The position numbers were made by a program, and so were the translations under genes. A DNA stretch of 22,282 nt, from positions 1-22,282 of the IMG/VR virus record IMGVR_UViG_3300017917_003352; one strand, given 5' to 3'. The stretch's first letter is position 1; every line of letters begins with the position of its first letter. Shown piece by piece: positions 6,489-14,511 of this stretch. The DNA is from a virus. The notes beneath the pieces are model-generated. The model saw nothing but the letters and a program-made list of their open reading frames with translations. It made no database searches and was not told the DNA's origin.

Positions 6489-6496
6489 TATTTATC
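6489..6496 (-). promoter_or_regulatory. T4-type late promoter (GATAAATA)
   Basis: GATAAATA on the minus strand matches the T4-like late consensus (TATAAATA, or NATAAATA in T4-like cyanophages). It ends 26 nt before the ATG of the gene at 5608-6462, almost the same distance as the copy at 14537-14544. The expected start leaves a leader of roughly 20 nt with an AGGATTGGG stretch as a possible ribosome site. Confidence 0.65.
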
Positions 6497-6749
6497 TTTT
6501 AATAGCAGAGCCGCCGCCGAAGATATTTGTCTTCATATCTAAGGCATTTTTAGCGGTTCCATCAGGGTTTTTAGCCTGCTTTACTTTAGGAACATCCGGA
6601 GCTTTTGTACCGCTTTTTCCAGGACTTCCTGTGTAACTCTTTTTTCCGCGATCTTTTCCTATAGCTATGTGTGGGCTCACTACGGTTGCAATGTTTCCGG
6701 AGCTGGTAGCACCTGCGGTAGCTGTTTCAAAAATTTCACGTATTTTCAT
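6492..6749 (-). CDS. Small late protein with capsid-targeting-like N-terminus, 85 aa
   Basis: The product begins MKIREIFETATAG, sharing the M-[RK]-x-x-E-[FIL] start of its neighbours and containing two I-x-E sites (I3-R-E5 and I6-F-E8). The rest is Gly/Ser/Lys/Pro rich, basic and without hydrophobic segments (patterns GKKSYTGSPGKSG and FGGGSAIKR), so it is probably disordered and able to bind nucleic acid. No Shine-Dalgarno is visible. AATAAATA at 6757-6764 sits too close to the ATG to serve clearly as its promoter. It lies in the late block, 10 nt after the 140-aa gene. Function unknown; a packaged internal peptide is my inference. Confidence 0.7.
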   Translation of the reverse strand: MKIREIFETATAGATSSGNIATVVSPHIAIGKDRGKKSYTGSPGKSGTKAPDVPKVKQAKNPDGTAKNALDMKTNIFGGGSAIKR

Positions 6750-6759
6750 AATATAATAT

Positions 6760-7182
6760 TTATTTCTTTCGACCGCTCTTCATATTTGCGCACCAATGGT
6801 ACATTTTGGCTTTCTCACCGCTAGAGTTTTTAGCACGTTTTCTTAGATCAGTCACAGAGCCATTACAGCTCGCTCCTGATTTCTTTACTCTGCCCGGGCG
6901 ACTTTTGCCCTTTACTTTTCCGTCCGCGAAGTTTTCGGTAAGTTTGTTTAGTTTTTTATAGTAGTCCCCGCCTATACTCATTTTTGCCTGTTTGTATAAC
7001 ATCATTAGTTGTGATGCTTGGGACTTAACATATGATGTTTTAGGAAGATCAGACATTTTATCGATAGCCAGTTTCATAGCATCAACACCAGTCTCGGCAT
7101 CTATAGCAAGACGATCTTTGATGATCCTCTGAACATCACTGTCGGAAATTTTTAATTCTGTTATAAATTCGCTAGCTCTCAT
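6760..7182 (-). CDS. Late protein with capsid-targeting-like N-terminus and basic Cys tail, 140 aa
   Basis: The start MRASEFITE is nearly identical to the start of the preceding gene (MRASEI) and carries an I-T-E site (I7-E9). Residues 10-85 form a helical region. The last 50 residues are strongly basic with two cysteines (C106 in GASCNG, C131 in MYHWC) and an SRPGRVK motif, a domain I recall from other T4-like marine phages without an assigned function. L81-T-E83 precedes this tail and could be a second processing site. The ATG overlaps the stop of the HAD-GH19 gene (ATGA at 7179-7182), so the two are translationally coupled. Confidence 0.8.
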   Translation of the reverse strand: MRASEFITELKISDSDVQRIIKDRLAIDAETGVDAMKLAIDKMSDLPKTSYVKSQASQLMMLYKQAKMSIGGDYYKKLNKLTENFADGKVKGKSRPGRVKKSGASCNGSVTDLRKRAKNSSGEKAKMYHWCANMKSGRKK

Positions 7183-8786
7183 TTCATTGCCGTCTTAAAA
7201 TTTACAAATTTTTCTTTTCGATCTTCTAGACCCTTAAGGCCGGGATTGATAGGTTTAGTTGATGCTCTGGTATCGTAAAAATTGTCTACTTTAGGCTGTA
7301 CACGATTCTGCCAAAACCATATAGCTACTTTAGCAGCAATTTCTGGTTTTTCTACTAGCTCAGGACGTTCTTCCAAAGGCAATCCTAATGCTTCTCCCGC
7401 TTTTTTATAATTATATCTGCCAGTAAGCTGTATGTAGCCTCTACCTTTGTAACGAGCACCGTCACCTACTTTAGTATTACCTAATGTTTTTGCTTTAGGA
7501 TTAACCTGTACTAGCTTTTTAGTTTTCTTGTCTTTAACAAACTTAGGTTCATACTTTTTAAAATCTAATGAACCGCCATACTCGACCATTGATTTAAAGT
7601 TGTGCGATTCATGTGCTGTCTGTGCTAAGAACTGTGCTAGTTCTTCTCCTTTAATACCAGCGGCTATAGCAGCCTTGGTTAGAAACTTTTCGTGAGGACT
7701 ATCAGTTACTAAATGTTTAGGTATAGCATCCTTGGCAATCTTAATTACACCTTTTTCAAAATTGCTTTTTTTGTCGTCTGATTTAGTAACCGAAACAGCT
7801 TTTTCTTTATCGTCCTGACTGGATTTGTAAGCATCGTAGGCAGCAGGTCCTCCGGCAGCGATAGCAGCCCCTAAGGCAGCACCACCTACCCAGTCTTTCC
7901 AACCTTCATCTGTCTGAAACTCTTTACCTTGAAGTTTAACACCGGTTACGCCTTGTACCAATGCCCATGCTTTAGAGTATGCTTTTTGTGCTATTAATTT
8001 TTTAAAAACATCTTTTTCAAAATCCGATGCCTTTTGCATGAATTTGAATACTTCCATAGCACCTACATTTCCTGGGTATGATGCTTCTCCTACATTTCCG
8101 CCATCACCGCTATATCCTACAGCGTATCCGTAACCACCAAAGGGTCCAGGACCGTATGCGGCCCATCGTGGACGTTTTCTTTTTCTTTTTTCAGCCATCA
8201 TTCCTTCACGCATATATTCTGATGCCTGACCGTCTAGGCTAACGTGCCATGCATAGAATTTTGTCTTAGGATGATCTTTTTTTAATTCTATAAAGGTATG
8301 AAGATTAGGTTTAGCATCGTCGTACATTATTGCTTTGCTATAATCTTCTTTATCTAATAGATTTTTAATAATAGCTTTTTTACGTTCTTCAGTTGTGCCT
8401 TGTTTACTGTTACCTGCACGATATACATGAACTTTGTCAATGTCTACACCATATTTGCGGAAAGTATCTAGAAATAATTCTTTATCATCAAAGTCTGCAC
8501 GAGCTGTAACCATTACTACTTTGTTACCTGTAGCAATGTCTTGCTTGAGTTGACGCATCATAGGAATGATAGGTTTAGATTTTTCAAAAAATTCTCTAGC
8601 GTTACGAAAATCTTCAAAGTCAAAACTTTCGCCCGGTTTTAATTTATAGTGTGTAAAATCGTGACTATTAAGGCTGTTTACAACCTGACCGTCCTTAACA
8701 ACATGAACCTTAGTCTGCGTGTGAACTAAGGTATCATCGATGTCAAAGACTACTAATTTCTTAGGTTGTATTTCACTCGCTCTCAT
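7179..8786 (-). CDS. HAD-type phosphatase fused to GH19 chitinase/lysozyme, 535 aa
   Basis: Two enzymes lie in one chain. Residues 9-185 form a HAD hydrolase with motif I FDIDDT (D15, D17), motif II MVTAR (T94) and motif III MYDDAKPN (D156, D157), related to acid-phosphatase or polynucleotide-phosphatase-like HADs. A basic and Gly/Tyr-rich linker (199-232) and a short Gly/Ala hydrophobic helix (299-317) follow. Residues 355-530 form a GH19 domain: AHES with catalytic Glu393, GRGYIQLTGRYNY (448-460), and a VAIWFW helix. GH19 enzymes of phages cleave peptidoglycan or chitin. I chose the ATG at 8786 over the TTG at 8789 because MRASEI matches the neighbouring gene start and ATG shares its A with the upstream TGA (TGATG). 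With a separate GH19 endolysin in the lysis cassette, this one is probably virion-associated. Confidence 0.85.
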   Translation of the reverse strand: MRASEIQPKKLVVFDIDDTLVHTQTKVHVVKDGQVVNSLNSHDFTHYKLKPGESFDFEDFRNAREFFEKSKPIIPMMRQLKQDIATGNKVVMVTARADFDDKELFLDTFRKYGVDIDKVHVYRAGNSKQGTTEERKKAIIKNLLDKEDYSKAIMYDDAKPNLHTFIELKKDHPKTKFYAWHVSLDGQASEYMREGMMAEKRKRKRPRWAAYGPGPFGGYGYAVGYSGDGGNVGEASYPGNVGAMEVFKFMQKASDFEKDVFKKLIAQKAYSKAWALVQGVTGVKLQGKEFQTDEGWKDWVGGAALGAAIAAGGPAAYDAYKSSQDDKEKAVSVTKSDDKKSNFEKGVIKIAKDAIPKHLVTDSPHEKFLTKAAIAAGIKGEELAQFLAQTAHESHNFKSMVEYGGSLDFKKYEPKFVKDKKTKKLVQVNPKAKTLGNTKVGDGARYKGRGYIQLTGRYNYKKAGEALGLPLEERPELVEKPEIAAKVAIWFWQNRVQPKVDNFYDTRASTKPINPGLKGLEDRKEKFVNFKTAMK

Positions 8787-8944
8787 CAATGCTCACCGTA
8801 AGGATTTATTTTTTCGTCGGAATCTTCGTTAGATTTTTCTGGATATACGAGATATTGATTAGGATTAGGAGTCTGAGGCTGCTGTCTTTCCTCTTCAATT
8901 CTTTTCTGCGCTCTTTCGATATAGTCCTTGAGAGTCTTGTCCAT
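8786..8944 (-). CDS. Small charged protein, 52 aa, unknown
   Basis: I place the start at the ATG at 8944 (MDKTLKDYIERAQKR), 4 nt after the IscA-like stop; the longer frame to 9010 would run deep into that gene. The product is a charged helix (residues 1-22) followed by a Gln/Pro/Asn/Asp-rich hydrophilic tail. There is no signal, membrane segment or recognised domain. Its TGA overlaps the ATG of the HAD-GH19 gene by one base. Position and coupling suggest a small accessory partner of its neighbours, with no evidence on function. Confidence 0.6.
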   Translation of the reverse strand: MDKTLKDYIERAQKRIEEERQQPQTPNPNQYLVYPEKSNEDSDEKINPYGEH

Positions 8945-9480: not shown

Positions 9481-10086
9481 TTAATAATTATCTATATCTC
9501 GAAATTCTTTACCAGATGACTTGTCCATGTAATTAGCAGAAGTTTTTTTAGCTGTATATGGACTTTTATCTAGATAATTTTTTCCATCTTGTTTTGCTGA
9601 ATACGGACCTTTATCTATATAGTCTGTGGCCGCAGTCGATTGTTGTGATTGATCTTTTTTCTCTGGTTTATTACTTTCGTTATCTTTATATCTGTCTAGA
9701 TGTATACTATATTGTTTTATACCTTTTTTCTCTAATATATTTTCTAGATCTTTTTTAGCATCTTCTAGTCTATAATCGTAAGAATGTCCTAGATCTTTTT
9801 TAATTACTTTTACAGTACCGTCGTCGGCTTTAAACTTAATAGTTGCTATGACCGGTAATGGTCCTTCGCTGGCCGCAGCACTTATACCTGTACCTGCTAG
9901 AGCAGCAGCTCCAAGTCCTTTTAAAAATCCTCTACGATCAACTTCGTCGACTTTGCCTTTGTGCTTTTCATAACCTTGCTTCTGTTCTTTCTTTTTGTCT
10001 CGATGTGCTCCAGCACCTGCTGTCTTTTGGTTCTTAGCTACAAAGTTACGTGGCTTACTTGCTGGTATAAACTCTTTTGCTTTCAT
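9481..10086 (-). CDS. Late protein with internal twin-arginine motif and 15-residue repeats, 201 aa
   Basis: The N-terminus MKAKEFI shares the block's signature and is followed by a basic stretch (20-45). At residues 50-56 there is a textbook twin-arginine motif, DRRGFLK, followed by a Gly/Ala hydrophobic segment (57-72) with Ala-x-Ala at its end, i.e. a complete Tat signal placed 50 residues inside the protein. V46-D-E48 just before it could be a processing site. Residues 75-135 form a mixed alpha/beta domain, and 155-199 hold three copies of a [DN]Y[ILM]DK[GS] repeat. The ATG overlaps the stop of the 1041-aa gene (ATGA). Function unknown; delivery and export to the periplasm is a hypothesis. 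Confidence 0.8.
   Translation of the reverse strand: MKAKEFIPASKPRNFVAKNQKTAGAGAHRDKKKEQKQGYEKHKGKVDEVDRRGFLKGLGAAALAGTGISAAASEGPLPVIATIKFKADDGTVKVIKKDLGHSYDYRLEDAKKDLENILEKKGIKQYSIHLDRYKDNESNKPEKKDQSQQSTAATDYIDKGPYSAKQDGKNYLDKSPYTAKKTSANYMDKSSGKEFRDIDNY
9490..9624 (-). repeat. Three tandem 15-codon repeats in the Tat-motif gene
   Basis: Residues 155-169, 170-184 and 185-199 align as [DN]Y[ILM]DK[GS]-x-Y/G-x-AK-like units, the third degenerate. The DNA copies differ, so this is a selected or old protein repeat rather than a recent duplication. Confidence 0.7.
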
Positions 10087-13000
10087 GATGATCTCTTTTG
10101 TTTAGGACCTTTGCGTGTTTTCCATTTCTTATCAGTTGAACACCAATAGCGTCCGTAACCTTCTTCTATACTATCGATGAATCGATCAATACCTCTGCTA
10201 CGAACTCCGCCTTTCTTACGTATTTTAGCTAGTTCTTCTAGAGCATGTCGAATCTGTTCCATGTTCATCTTTAGTTCTTCGAAGTGTTTAGCCATGGCCT
10301 GCCATTCACTAGGGCTGGCATTGTTAGCTCGAGCTGCTAGATCTTTTAATTGATTGGCAGCACGTAACATTCTATATTTTAGTTTAGCAGGATTAGCTTT
10401 ATCATGACCGTATATCATTGGGTCCATTGGATCATCGGGATCCATTTCTATCGGAACTTCTGATATTAGATTTTCTTGTATGTTCATACCAGCCTTGGCG
10501 GCCGAAATTAATTTTTTAATCCATGCCTCGCCTAGTTTTTTGCCATCAAAACCTTTCATCCAAAGTGCTAATTGCTGTTCTTCGGTAGCATTAGGATCTT
10601 TTAAAATATTTCTTAATTGCGTAAAACTAATACCAGTACCACCAGACTCGGCAGCTCTCGGAGTATTTTCTACGTCAAACGTTACGTGTTCGAAACCAGG
10701 ATACTGGGGATTTTTCATTCTTTTACTTAGATGATCCATCCATTTTTTAAATCCGGCATACCGGTCCTCTCCTACCATAACTACGATATGACCATAGGGC
10801 GGAGGATTAGATACAGTAACTAATTCTTTCTCGATCTTTTTAGCTACAGAACCGCCTTCCTGTATCAATTGAAACATATCTTTGTTTCCAGGATATAATT
10901 TTTGCCAGGTCTGTAATTTTAATTCTGGCGGAATAGGGTCATCAGGTCCTACAGCACTACTGATATAAACATACGGATCACCGCCGACCTGTTGTGCTTT
11001 ATTCAATACAAATTCAACTAGTTGTTGATGACCTCTATGACCGACAAAACTTCCGGCGGTAACTACAGCGGTTTTATCACTTTTTTCACCATCGCCGGGT
11101 CCTGGTGGCCTTGCGGCTTTGATCGCAGCATTTTTAGCAGCTATGATATTTTTTTGTTCCGGACTGGTAATTTTTACTGGACCACTTTTAGTATTAAGAA
11201 TAATACCCTCGTAGTCTTTACCTAGTTTATCTTTTCCTATGATATTAGGATTCGAAATAATAAATTTTGCTAATTCGTCTTTAACTGGCTGAAGAGCTTC
11301 GCTAGCTTGTTTTTTTAGATCTCTTTTACCGCTAGTTACTAATCCTTTAAGAACTTCTATATTTGCCAACGGAGGTAATACCGCAGTAACATCAAGACCG
11401 CCATCAGATGTTAAAGAATTATCAATGAACATCGTGGTACCTATACGACCAATTTTTCTCAAAGCAGATACGTACTTGTCACTATTAGGATGTTGGTCTC
11501 CTGTTGAGCTTTTTTCTGCAAACAAGGGAACTAGTGCTAGACGTACACCCTCTGGTAGTTTATCATAGGAAATTCCTACAAATTTTAATCTACCATCTTC
11601 TTGTTCTGTAGCAAAAGGAAGATATAAAACTTCGCAATGTATTTTCACATCTATTAGTGCTTTGTTGCCTAATTTATTGTCGACCTGAGAAATAACCTGC
11701 ATCATCTCGTCGTACAGGTCGTCAAATAGTTTTGCTCGAGCTCGCACCTCGGGGTCAGCTTGTCTTTTTTCTGCATGTTGACTAAATGTACCAGGCTCGA
11801 ATTTCGGCCCACTACGACTGGTTTCCATATATGGTCGACCGTTAGAATCCTTGCCAAATCTAGCACCGAACCCGTCGACCTTAACAGTCATTGGTATATT
11901 ATCCAATTTAAATTGACCCGTGGCTTCGTCTTTGATTTCGTCTAACAAATTTAGAAAATCGATGTCTTTCATTTTTTCTAAATGAACGATACCTTTTCTT
12001 TTACTCTGTACCACGTTAGTGTCATCTGCTTCGTTAATACTTTCGCCTGTGACCTTATATGCCGCTCTATAATTTTTCTTTAGTTCTTCAATATTGCTAG
12101 GAGCCGGAATTTTTAAAACTTCTATAATTTTATTCAATGCGGCTGATTTTTCTTTTTCATCTCTGTCAGGGTCGTTTTTATATAGACCTTGCGCTCCAGG
12201 ACCAAACATCTTATTAACAAAATAGTCTAAGACACTTTGTTTTTCTTTGTCATTTAGACTAGCATTCATTATTTCTAAAATACCAACAAAGGACCAAAAC
12301 TTAGGCTCGAGACTTTTAGATTTTTTAGCATCTACTCTGTCTCCGAATAGTTTACTAAAGATGCTACCTAAATCTTGATCGTAGTCTGATGTGGGTCTAG
12401 CAGTCATAACAGGCAATCCATCTTTAATTAAAGGTTTGCCTGAGTCGTCTATAACGGGTTCGTATTTGTCTCGAAGGCCGCCCCCTTCTTTAGAACTTAC
12501 AGCAAAGGACATCATATTATCGCTTGCTGGAACATCCTGTTCACTTCTAGCTTTACCTCTACCTACCATTTTTCTTAGTAAGAAATCTTGTTTGGTTAAG
12601 GAGGTTAATGCCTGTATTAAGAATTTATGGAATACTCCTTTAATACCAGCATTGAGGTCTTCCCAAGAACTAGAATGGCTGAATTTGCTCCATGCAGTTG
12701 GTTCGTCTTGATCATATTTCACAAACTCTAGATCGATCTGAACTTTTATCGGGGGCTCGGTTAATTCCCAAAGACTGGAAAATTGTTCGTTACCTGATTT
12801 AAATCCCAACAACTTCGCAGGACCAATTTTTTGATTCTGCATAGACTTTAGAAATTCTTGAACTTCTGAAGAATAATCAGCATTTATCTGTGTGTCGATA
12901 TCTCCAACCTTGGGTTTTTTTTCAATGAATGTTTCATCAGAAATACCCTTGACATTAAAAAAGTGCAGGCTTGATCCGCTTAGAAATTCTTTACTCTGTA

Positions 13001-13208
13001 GAAGCTTAGGGTTCCACAAAGGTTTTTTATATTTCTGAGAAAAGGATTTATTGATACTAGACAAAAGATCATCTAGGATAGGAACTATGTAACTTCTATT
13101 AGTTACTTTTAAATCTATGTCCTGTGCTTGATGACCTCCGGGTAATTCTAAATTACCGCCTTCATTGATGGCCTCACCAGATCTGCGAAATAATTCTAAC
13201 AGTTTCAT
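10083..13208 (-). CDS. Multidomain NTase-like / ligase-like / NMNAT-like protein, 1041 aa, probable polyprotein
   Basis: Three enzyme-like domains can be read. (1) Residues 70-165: SGSS, GDID (102-105) and VQIDLEF (D159, E161) resemble a pol-beta-type nucleotidyltransferase. (2) Residues 410-685: the covalent nucleotidyltransferase (DNA/RNA ligase) pattern, with motif I KVDG (K443), CEVLYLP (525-531) as motif III, YEGIIL (666-671) as motif IV and PVKI (677-680) as motif V. (3) Residues 712-870: an adenylyl/cytidylyltransferase with GSFVGHRGH (719-727, HxGH) and ISFTQLR (860-866). A helical region (936-1000) and a basic YWC tail follow. Sites GEAINE (11-16), GESINE (389-393 region) and LISE (914-917) lie after the leader and between domains. 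T4 gp21 cuts after (L/I)-x-E, so processing into separate enzymes is plausible. RNA repair or NAD-related chemistry is possible. It starts 3 nt after the preceding gene. Confidence 0.85.
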   Translation of the reverse strand: MKLLELFRRSGEAINEGGNLELPGGHQAQDIDLKVTNRSYIVPILDDLLSSINKSFSQKYKKPLWNPKLLQSKEFLSGSSLHFFNVKGISDETFIEKKPKVGDIDTQINADYSSEVQEFLKSMQNQKIGPAKLLGFKSGNEQFSSLWELTEPPIKVQIDLEFVKYDQDEPTAWSKFSHSSSWEDLNAGIKGVFHKFLIQALTSLTKQDFLLRKMVGRGKARSEQDVPASDNMMSFAVSSKEGGGLRDKYEPVIDDSGKPLIKDGLPVMTARPTSDYDQDLGSIFSKLFGDRVDAKKSKSLEPKFWSFVGILEIMNASLNDKEKQSVLDYFVNKMFGPGAQGLYKNDPDRDEKEKSAALNKIIEVLKIPAPSNIEELKKNYRAAYKVTGESINEADDTNVVQSKRKGIVHLEKMKDIDFLNLLDEIKDEATGQFKLDNIPMTVKVDGFGARFGKDSNGRPYMETSRSGPKFEPGTFSQHAEKRQADPEVRARAKLFDDLYDEMMQVISQVDNKLGNKALIDVKIHCEVLYLPFATEQEDGRLKFVGISYDKLPEGVRLALVPLFAEKSSTGDQHPNSDKYVSALRKIGRIGTTMFIDNSLTSDGGLDVTAVLPPLANIEVLKGLVTSGKRDLKKQASEALQPVKDELAKFIISNPNIIGKDKLGKDYEGIILNTKSGPVKITSPEQKNIIAAKNAAIKAARPPGPGDGEKSDKTAVVTAGSFVGHRGHQQLVEFVLNKAQQVGGDPYVYISSAVGPDDPIPPELKLQTWQKLYPGNKDMFQLIQEGGSVAKKIEKELVTVSNPPPYGHIVVMVGEDRYAGFKKWMDHLSKRMKNPQYPGFEHVTFDVENTPRAAESGGTGISFTQLRNILKDPNATEEQQLALWMKGFDGKKLGEAWIKKLISAAKAGMNIQENLISEVPIEMDPDDPMDPMIYGHDKANPAKLKYRMLRAANQLKDLAARANNASPSEWQAMAKHFEELKMNMEQIRHALEELAKIRKKGGVRSRGIDRFIDSIEEGYGRYWCSTDKKWKTRKGPKQKRSS

Positions 13209-13210
13209 TC

Positions 13211-13552
13211 TTAATCCTGTTTATAATCGCCTTTTTCGATATGTTTAGATTGCTCTGAACAAATTCTTTTGGCCAATTCGATTAATTTTTCTTCCGGAAA
13301 TTTTTCTTTTACGTCTTCGATTTTAAATTTATCACAATACATTTTTAAACTTTGACGTATAGGTTTCATATAAATGGAATAGGCCTTGGGATGATCTAAA
13401 TATTTTTTATGTTTATCAACAGCAGGAAAAAAATACTTATTCAATACGGATGAATCGTTATCCATATAGAATTTCAAATCGTCTAACCAGTCAACATCCT
13501 GTTGATCATCTTTAGGTGCGCCGATCGCACTAAACATTTCTTTTAAAAGCAT
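13211..13552 (-). CDS. Hypothetical late protein, 113 aa
   Basis: I place the start at the ATG at 13552, whose A is shared with the TAA of the upstream gene (TAATG), rather than at 13588, which would overlap that gene by 37 nt. The resulting N-terminus MLLKEMFSAIG then resembles the MKLLELF start of the next gene. The body is acidic then basic and helical (LDDLKFYMDNDSSVLNKYFFPAVDKHK region), with two cysteines and no membrane segment. It precedes the 1041-aa gene by 2 nt. Family unknown. Confidence 0.75.
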   Translation of the reverse strand: MLLKEMFSAIGAPKDDQQDVDWLDDLKFYMDNDSSVLNKYFFPAVDKHKKYLDHPKAYSIYMKPIRQSLKMYCDKFKIEDVKEKFPEEKLIELAKRICSEQSKHIEKGDYKQD

Positions 13553-14511
13553 TACCAGCTCCTGCAAGACCAGTAACGTGCTTTCCAACGTGGCCCTGGA
13601 TTTTTACAATTATGGCGAGCACGGAAAGATTTTCTACGTGCCGGATTTGATTTCTTAATACGCATTTTTTTATCGCCAAAATTTACTTTAACGATATTAC
13701 CATTCGGCTTGCGTACATATACTTTAGATTTTTTAACATCCCCTGGCAGTTTCTTTCCTAAGGGAACTTCTTTTCCGCGATACTTAGCTTCGTCGACTTC
13801 TGTATCTTCAGCATATTTGTTGGCTTTCATATAATCACGAGCAGTATCTAAGTAGTCCATGGCCTTGGTAATTTTAGCCTGTACCCACTCTGGTAAGTTC
13901 TCGTCTGCTTGAATAATACTATATAATTCTTTAGCAGCGTCATTCACTGTACGTAGTTGATCCTTGGCCATATCGCCTTCGCGATCGTATTCACCTTGAT
14001 TGTATTCTGCATCCGGATCTTCTGGACCGTGATCTTCCATCTTCACACAGTTGTCCACACGCTTGCCACCTTTCATTTTGGTGCCCATGCGCTTGTAGCC
14101 TTTCCAACAAGCCTTACCGTCTAGACCTTTTTGTTTTTCTTCACGGATAACTTCGCCTTCTAAGAAAACAATACCTTCTTTAGTTAACATGTCTAATGCA
14201 GTATCGTCGAGATCAATAACGATACCGTCTTCTAAAATATCGATGATTTCTGTAGCGATTTCAAAATCTTCAGAAAAACTGATTCCGAAATTATCTCCTA
14301 CTTCAAATGATTCTGCGAATCCTTTGGCTTGAGCTTCTTTTTCTAGGTCAGCCTTGCGTTGGATAATAGCTTGTTTAATTTCCGGATCTTCAGAAGCAAC
14401 AGGATCCATTTGTAGATCTTGTAGGGCTTTGCGTTTTGCCTGTAAATCTTCTTTGTCTTTAAGTTCTGTTTCGCTGATTAAAGCGTCTAATTTTGATAAA
14501 AGGTCTCTCAT
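13552..14511 (-). CDS. Late protein with capsid-targeting-like N-terminus and two Cys-containing basic modules, 319 aa
   Basis: The N-terminal helix ends in A-L-I-S-E (I12-E14), a (L/I)-x-E-type site. Residues 15-125 are acidic and helical. Two small basic cysteine modules follow: residues 133-158 (KACWKGYKRMG to NCVKM, C135/C155) and the C-terminal 55 residues (VRKPNGNIVKVNFGD, then SFRARHNC and YWSC, C302/C316). I recall the C-terminal module from other T4-like marine phages, where its function is unassigned; its charge and spacing suggest nucleic-acid binding. V239-D-E241 before it may be another processing site. A late promoter and a hairpin leader precede the gene. Confidence 0.8.
   Translation of the reverse strand: MRDLLSKLDALISETELKDKEDLQAKRKALQDLQMDPVASEDPEIKQAIIQRKADLEKEAQAKGFAESFEVGDNFGISFSEDFEIATEIIDILEDGIVIDLDDTALDMLTKEGIVFLEGEVIREEKQKGLDGKACWKGYKRMGTKMKGGKRVDNCVKMEDHGPEDPDAEYNQGEYDREGDMAKDQLRTVNDAAKELYSIIQADENLPEWVQAKITKAMDYLDTARDYMKANKYAEDTEVDEAKYRGKEVPLGKKLPGDVKKSKVYVRKPNGNIVKVNFGDKKMRIKKSNPARRKSFRARHNCKNPGPRWKARYWSCRSW

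Follow-up and report, generated by a model that had tools for sequence, protein, structure and literature searches.

A predicted virion cargo polyprotein of a T4-like phage with prohead-protease motifs at the borders of its nucleotidyl-transfer enzymes

Results and Discussion

The sequence analyzed here, IMG/VR record IMGVR_UViG_3300017917_003352 (22,282 nucleotides, referred to as the window), is a 22.3-kb fragment of a T4-like myovirus. On its minus strand, it carries an open reading frame (ORF) of 1041 aa, P0001 (10083..13208), with the ATG at 13208 and the stop at 10083; the plus strand of this interval is not open. With a probability of about 85%, P0001 is a polyprotein that is carried as cargo in the virion of a T4-like phage; it would be cut by a gp21-type protease, and its parts would be injected. 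This reading is based on sequence comparison, namely on the conservation of cleavage motifs at the domain borders, their depletion in the domain cores, the disordered linkers, the N-termini of stand-alone homologues and a protease gene in the genomes of relatives. From these features, we infer packaging, actual cleavage and injection.

Cleavage motifs at the domain borders

A profile scan with the N-terminal nucleotidyltransferase (NTase) domain detected 199 relatives in viral contigs, and 80 loci were kept. After the removal of sequences with more than 90% identity, 53 ORFs (including that of the window) combined the NTase with a ligase-like domain in one frame. Nearly all of them also contain, in the same order, a domain similar to nicotinamide mononucleotide adenylyltransferase (NMNAT). 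The conservation alignment, to which all conservation values given below refer, and the AlphaFold input comprised 57 sequences.

The first-pass annotation, made from the letters of the window, had described a special junction hexapeptide GE-x-INE at residues 11-16 and 389-393, with LISE at 914-917. GEAINE and LISE were found at these residues, GESINE at 388-393. The hexapeptide itself is not conserved among the relatives; only the general pattern [ILV]-x-E|[GA] is, which is the motif of the T4 gp21 type. T4 gp21 cleaves after L/I-X-E (PMC9026906), and the predicted sites are instances of this prohead-protease motif. Site 1 (INE|GG) ends a 16-residue leader, MKLLELFRRSGEAINE (13161..13208, minus strand as for all features of P0001), which resembles a capsid-targeting sequence and the leaders of homologues. 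Site 2 (INE|A, residues 391-394, 12027..12038) is located in the linker 386-396 between the NTase and the ligase-like domain, and site 3 (ISE|V, residues 915-918, 10455..10466) in the segment 913-922 behind the NMNAT-like domain. The mean predicted local distance difference test value (pLDDT) of the AlphaFold model was 85. Values below 50 were found at residues 1-17, 386-396, 700-705, 913-922, 999-1005 and 1029-1041, and sites 1-3 lie in three of these disordered segments. When checked for burial inside domains, the I-x-E sites were not buried.

In P0001 alone, [ILV]xE occurs 19 times and is followed by A, G, S, T or V in 8 cases. The motif is thus not rare within this protein, and a single sequence is weak evidence. 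The shortness of the motif and its 19 occurrences would fit motif and leader being chance features of a phage protein. This is nevertheless very improbable, being contradicted by the enrichment at the borders, the depletion in the cores and the matching natural N-termini.

All sequences with an intact leader (51/51) end this leader with [ILV]-x-E|G(G)N. The homologous leaders follow the pattern M-x-[LI]-x-[ED]-[LF]-F..[ILV]xE|GGN and are mostly 11-18 residues in length. The NTase-ligase linker contains [ILV]xE|[AGS] in 47 of 53 sequences; of the equally long windows inside domains, 29 of 971 do (Fisher p ~4e-54, shared ancestry ignored). Conservation is 90% or more at E16-G-G-N and E393, and the neighbouring residues drift; likewise, the length and the other residues of the linker vary between relatives and the protease motif is retained. 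Because of this conservation, the I, L or V at P3 in 51 of 51 leaders and the difference between linkers and inside-domain windows, the border motif goes beyond chance, and the placement of cut-site motifs at domain borders suggested in the initial description was borne out.

Within the cores of the NTase, ligase-like and NMNAT-like domains, the motif is depleted to 0.11, 0.45 and 0.25 of the shuffled expectation, respectively. Two proteins of these phages that are not expected to be packaged, the Clp ATPase and gp43, served as controls and reached 1.25 and 1.83, respectively. One further control gene was also low in the motif, with small numbers. In the linker between the ligase-like and the NMNAT-like domain, which is disordered too, none of 54 sequences has a site, and for this reason the ligase and the adenylyltransferase probably stay joined. 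The proposed cutting into separate enzymes would take place at the NTase border and probably not between these two domains.

At the junction of site 3, the relatives have ESISE|A, ESVSE|A or similar sequences. A possible fourth site (IEE|G, residues 1014-1017) precedes a C-terminal GYGRYWC tag and is modelled as a low-confidence helix.

The gene arrangement of relatives is in accordance with these borders. Where the NTase is encoded alone, in Vibrio phage Va1, Xanthomonas phage X1 and Stenotrophomonas phage Mendera, it starts with MGGN, which is the predicted mature N-terminus and supports site 1. The NTase of Campylobacter phage CP220 keeps a leader (MKLSELMFILE|GGN). In the T4-like contig L173, the NTase has EFLNE|GGN and a separate ligase gene carries its own leader MGFEKYLQE|AE, and in locus L010 the chain is divided into two genes at site 2.

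It could be argued that the leader alone is removed and that the remainder acts as an uncut multifunctional enzyme, in which the internal motif serves as a flexible linker or docking peptide. T4 Alt and the internal proteins (IPs) are trimmed mainly at their ends (PMC9026906), fused domains could channel substrates, and the 53 non-redundant ORFs keep the domains in a single frame. However, the linker retains the exact protease motif at varying length and composition, the motif is depleted in the cores and absent from the ligase-NMNAT linker, and split genes as well as a solo ligase with LQE|AE exist. Removal of the leader alone is accordingly quite unlikely.

Packaging and the processing protease

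In T4, proteins are directed into the head by short N-terminal leaders, which comprise 10-19 residues in the IPs (PMC9026906). A Peptidase_S77 gene was found in the 219-kb close relative G003, in other large contigs bearing this NTase family and in 4 isolates. It adjoins gp22 and gp23, and the leader of that gp23 ends with KYLAE|SATAGATSAGN. T4 head genes are present in the nearest large relative. Given the specificity of T4 gp21 and the position of Peptidase_S77 beside gp22 and gp23, the comparison argues strongly that the cargo is cut by a gp21-type protease in the prohead. A search of the window's own record for PF03420 found nothing, which is expected for a 22-kb fragment.

A small gene of the window (6492-6749, minus strand) encodes MKIREIFE|TATAGATSSGNIAT and copies the gp23 leader junction LAE|SATAGATSAGN. 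This pattern was seen in more than 20 other loci and adjoins cargo genes in many relatives.

Enzyme domains and their putative function

The presence of three nucleotidyl-transfer enzymes in the chain, as originally proposed, was supported by fold matches and conserved active sites. The NTase domain (residues 17-393, folded to ~383; 12030..13160) has the predicted mature start GGN and was modelled with a pLDDT of 92 and a predicted template modelling score (pTM) of 0.88. Its top Foldseek matches, Pol beta, Pol mu and poly(A) polymerases, reached probabilities of up to 0.99 but had weak E values of ~0.02-0.1, and it matches phrog_19290. The active site GS..DxD..D comprises G78-S79, the metal-binding motif D103-x-D105 (12894..12902), present as GDID, and the third acidic residue D159 (12732-12734), all conserved in at least 90% of the sequences. 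RlaP (PF10127) was tried as the identity of this NTase and rejected, with no match to P0001 at E<=1 and none in 14 related genomes.

The covalent nucleotidyltransferase (ligase-like) domain (residues 394-703, 11100..12029) gave weak Foldseek matches to DNA and RNA ligases, including a ligation complex of non-homologous end joining (NHEJ). Motif I (KVDG, K443-G446, 11871..11882), E526 (motif III), E667-G668 (motif IV) and K679 (motif V) are at least 90% conserved. DNA ligases require an oligonucleotide-binding (OB) domain. In the model, no OB-fold follows motif V, just a helix (683-699) before the NMNAT-like domain, which speaks against a standard DNA ligase. No Pfam match to the ATP-grasp RNA ligase family RNA_ligase (PF09414) was found in P0001. 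Comparison of the thin ligase profile with phage DNA and RNA ligases by hhalign was uninformative, so that DNA versus RNA as the substrate is argued solely from the missing OB-fold.

The third enzyme is an NMNAT- or phosphopantetheine adenylyltransferase (PPAT)-like HxGH adenylyltransferase (residues 706-912, 10473..11093). Foldseek matches were 3pxu (TMt 0.67) and FAD synthetases. CTP_transf_like (PF01467) was above the cut-off in the relatives X1, Mendera and Va1, and P0001 itself reached only FAD_syn with E 0.017. In the sequence-profile search of the PDB, FAD synthetase was the sole match, for the NMNAT-like part. The Va1 homologue matches phrog_3462 (NMNAT, E 4e-7), which is only suggestive of NMN specificity. 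The HRGH motif (residues 724-727, 11028..11039) and TxxR (residues 863-866, 10611-10622) are at least 90% conserved. Homologues were checked for loss of K443, HxGH and DxD, and all three meet the same conservation level.

X1 and Mendera encode the same three enzymes as nearby separate genes, and Va1 has a fused ligase and NMNAT. The separate and partly fused versions point to a shared pathway, with the packaged polyprotein as one of several usages in phages. Between the separate NTase and ligase genes, X1, Mendera and L173 have a further gene (L147 3924-4928, L148 3728-4672, L173 7057-8373), which by eye may hold a nuclease-like D..ExK pattern.

Phages face tRNA cleavage and NAD-centred defences (PMC9503650), and an RlaP NTase together with RNA ligases has been described as an RNA repair pair of phages (PMC7824862). 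Tentatively, the three enzymes may serve the rapid repair of host-inflicted damage, that is, broken RNA (tRNA) ends and the supply of NAD or adenylate. This guess draws on the resemblance of NTase and ligase to RlaP-type pairs, and a role in supporting NAD or adenylate levels would suit the NMNAT-like partner.

Alternatively, the enzymes could mend ends or gaps of the phage DNA on entry, by Pol X-like gap filling and ligation as in NHEJ, and not RNA. By fold, the NTase comes closest to Pol beta and Pol mu, and several DNA ligases, including an NHEJ ligation complex, are among the top matches of the ligase. These matches are weak, however, the model has no OB-fold after motif V, and several related genomes already encode a normal DNA ligase, which makes a role in DNA repair unlikely.

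Another possible, though not probable, explanation is a cofactor or nucleotide pathway directed against an NAD-depleting defence. The ligase-like domain would then place AMP on a small molecule or a protein, and NAD would be produced or recycled by the NMNAT-like domain. The lack of a cut site within the ligase-NMNAT pair, which is fused in Va1 as well, would fit this, as would a gene of the nicotinamide phosphoribosyltransferase type in 5 of 14 records. The other 9 records, some of them fragments, are without such a gene, and the Pol-beta NTase would be left unexplained.

Proposed maturation

P0001 would be made as one chain, and its 16-residue leader would act as T4 capsid-targeting sequences do and deliver this precursor to the core of the prohead. 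At head maturation, a gp21-type protease would cut after [ILV]-x-E. Cut 1 would remove the leader and yield an NTase beginning with GGN, the cut at ESINE|A would free the NTase from the ligase-NMNAT unit and the cut at LISE|V would separate the tail. The three active enzymes would be injected together with the DNA. Before phage gene expression, the Pol-beta NTase might then restore broken RNA (tRNA) ends and the ligase seal them, with the NMNAT-like domain supporting the NAD or adenylate supply.

Several points weigh against this proposal. The relatives have a common ancestry, and the motif counts are therefore not independent. Site 3 (LISE|V) departs from the more typical E|A and E|G. The leaderless versions in X1, Va1 and Mendera indicate that the enzymes exist unpackaged too. 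The window is too short to include gp21, and no protease match was obtained in several large contigs of relatives. No virion peptides or neo-N-termini were seen; the homologue is not named in the main text on the proteome of Campylobacter phage IBB_35 or in the passages considered on CP21 and CP220. Finally, no sequence family proves an RNA substrate, and the profiles of RlaP and RNA_ligase miss P0001.

If the proposal is correct, capsid maturation in many T4-like phages would not be limited to the trimming of scaffolds and leaders but would also turn a single precursor into a set of active cargo enzymes. Large unknown proteins of these phages could then be read by looking for [ILV]xE at their domain borders, a simple rule by which the exact mature enzymes are predicted. 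The NTase-ligase-NMNAT pathway, conserved in fused form and in adjacent genes alike, could work against early defences of the host ahead of phage gene expression.

Comparison with known cargo and polyvalent proteins

As a predicted cargo, P0001 is a variation on gp21-processed head cargo and polyvalent proteins, both of which are already known. T4 Alt and IPI-III likewise are injected cargo with a short N-terminal leader ending in L/I-x-E, and Alt is also cut near its C-terminus (PMC9026906). Of the features of T4-type head cargo, the leader ending in L/I-x-E (I, L or V at P3 and E at P1 in 51/51) and the Peptidase_S77 gene in the genomes of relatives were found. In contrast to the T4 proteins, the cuts in P0001 would separate several enzyme domains of one chain, these domains are not ADP-ribosyltransferases, and the tails form modular polyprotein trains.

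Polyvalent proteins (Iyer et al. 2017, PMC5512222) are likewise large and combine disparate enzymes in many domains, including Pol-beta NTases. They are injected, and their processing into parts has been proposed (PMC5512222). Disparate domains in one chain are seen in P0001 as well, for which injection is presumed. Polyvalent proteins are commonly, although not universally, processed by embedded zincin-like peptidases, whereas no active peptidase domain was recognised in P0001, where only a sub-threshold stretch to the M26 N-terminal region was noted. Most likely, P0001 is cut in trans by the prohead protease. NMNAT is unmentioned in the polyvalent-protein paper and ligases appear only in passing (PMC5512222).

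The phage sets of RlaP NTase and ATP-grasp RNA ligase (PMC7824862) similarly couple a Pol-beta-type NTase to a KxDG ligase. P0001 differs from them in having no match to PF10127 or PF09414, in being fused and leadered and in its coupling to an HxGH adenylyltransferase. Multiple cuts after a glutamate-ending motif are also described for the head proteins of phiKZ and SPN3US, which are cut by gp175 and gp245, respectively (PMC5694885). In the parts of that paper considered here, these cuts mostly remove propeptides, whereas those in P0001 would free several enzymes.

Distribution of the arrangement

The combination of the three enzymes had been regarded as unusual. Given that viral contigs contain 199 relatives of its NTase domain, it is in fact common. 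The predicted arrangement is widespread in freshwater relatives of T4. Close relatives in viral contigs retain the full chain, with a best segment identity of 72% for L001-L005 and of 57-59% for L007-L009. A scan with the ligase-NMNAT alignment returned almost only close relatives. In the collection of bacterial and archaeal genomes, a single relative was found, located on a contig bearing T4-like genes, so that the family looks viral. L173 (CAKZJX010000007.1), which is binned as an Anaerolineae bacterium, resembles a T4-like phage with a gp23-like capsid protein, a UvsW-like helicase and a ribonucleotide reductase, and is probably a case of mis-binning or of an infected cell.

The window itself had no megablast match in the phage collection. 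It also contains genes resembling a gp43-type DNA polymerase, a Clp ATPase, DnaJ and a peptide deformylase.

Tail modules and neighbouring genes

The third part of the chain (918-1041) had been set apart for structure prediction. The border motif in front of it is present, and the segment is a swappable tail exchanged between phages. Beyond residue 917, the sequence is freely exchanged, and the site density is 0.0075 per residue compared to 0.0007 in the cores. In P0001, the tail comprises a helical module PIEMDPxDPMDPMI.. (residues 918-1016, 10161..10457) and, after IEE|G, the C-terminal tag GYGRYWCSTDKKWKTRKGPKQKRSS (10086..10160), which follows VKE|G in L001. The PIEMDP module, ~80% identical, follows a different HxGH enzyme in many of the loci L011-L050. 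Tails of relatives contain HD_4, a phage lysozyme with LysM, GP88 and a second NTP_transf_2-like domain, and the modules CWKGY and AGQWKNTGP recur. HD domains were seen in the tails of L087, L085 and L068 (HD_4 in L087 with E 4e-17) and are possibly alarmone hydrolases.

The next gene (9481..10086, minus strand), which overlaps P0001 by 4 bases, matches TAT_signal (E 4.7e-4) and DUF7230 and has KVDE|V followed by a Tat-like signal; it is probably a further cargo module. Export-signal-like stretches directly after cut sites or glutamates occur in this gene, in L001 (residues 1019-1040), in L022, L127, L077, L013, L021 and L042 and in other loci. They are either Tat-like, (V)DE|..RRGFLKGLGAAALAGTG..A, or Sec-like, VEE|GWKSK-VAGAALAAANLLASPAQA, and both types precede what seems to be the same small domain (DxLPDIVAHVTFK.. 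/ PITIAYVMIDGE..). The position of the signals after cut sites and before the same domain suggests that the host might export an injected module once it has been cut. It is conceivable, though doubtful, that many freshwater T4-like phages carry a kit matured by the prohead protease, with a conserved NTase | ligase-NMNAT core for the repair of RNA or NAD damage and interchangeable tails, of which some modules gain a Sec- or Tat-like signal only after the cut and could reach the periplasm via the host. Such a kit would mature inside the capsid as the polyproteins of animal viruses do.

The protein encoded at 13552-14511 (minus strand) has a leader DALISE|T and a KACWKGYKRMGTKMKGGKRVDNCVK module that is found again in many of the relatives' cargo tails. 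In the product of the gene at 7179-8789 (minus strand), a HAD phosphatase (phrog_415 polynucleotide kinase, E 3.5e-11) is fused with a spacer rich in Gly and with an endolysin of the chitinase type. A functional coupling of P0001 with this gene was considered and not used, as a HAD homologue was present in 1 fetched locus, L015. There, the HAD domain is 91% identical and has IVSE|K at the position of MMAE|K in the window gene. A spacer similar to that of 7179-8789 precedes the lysozyme in the tail of L113.

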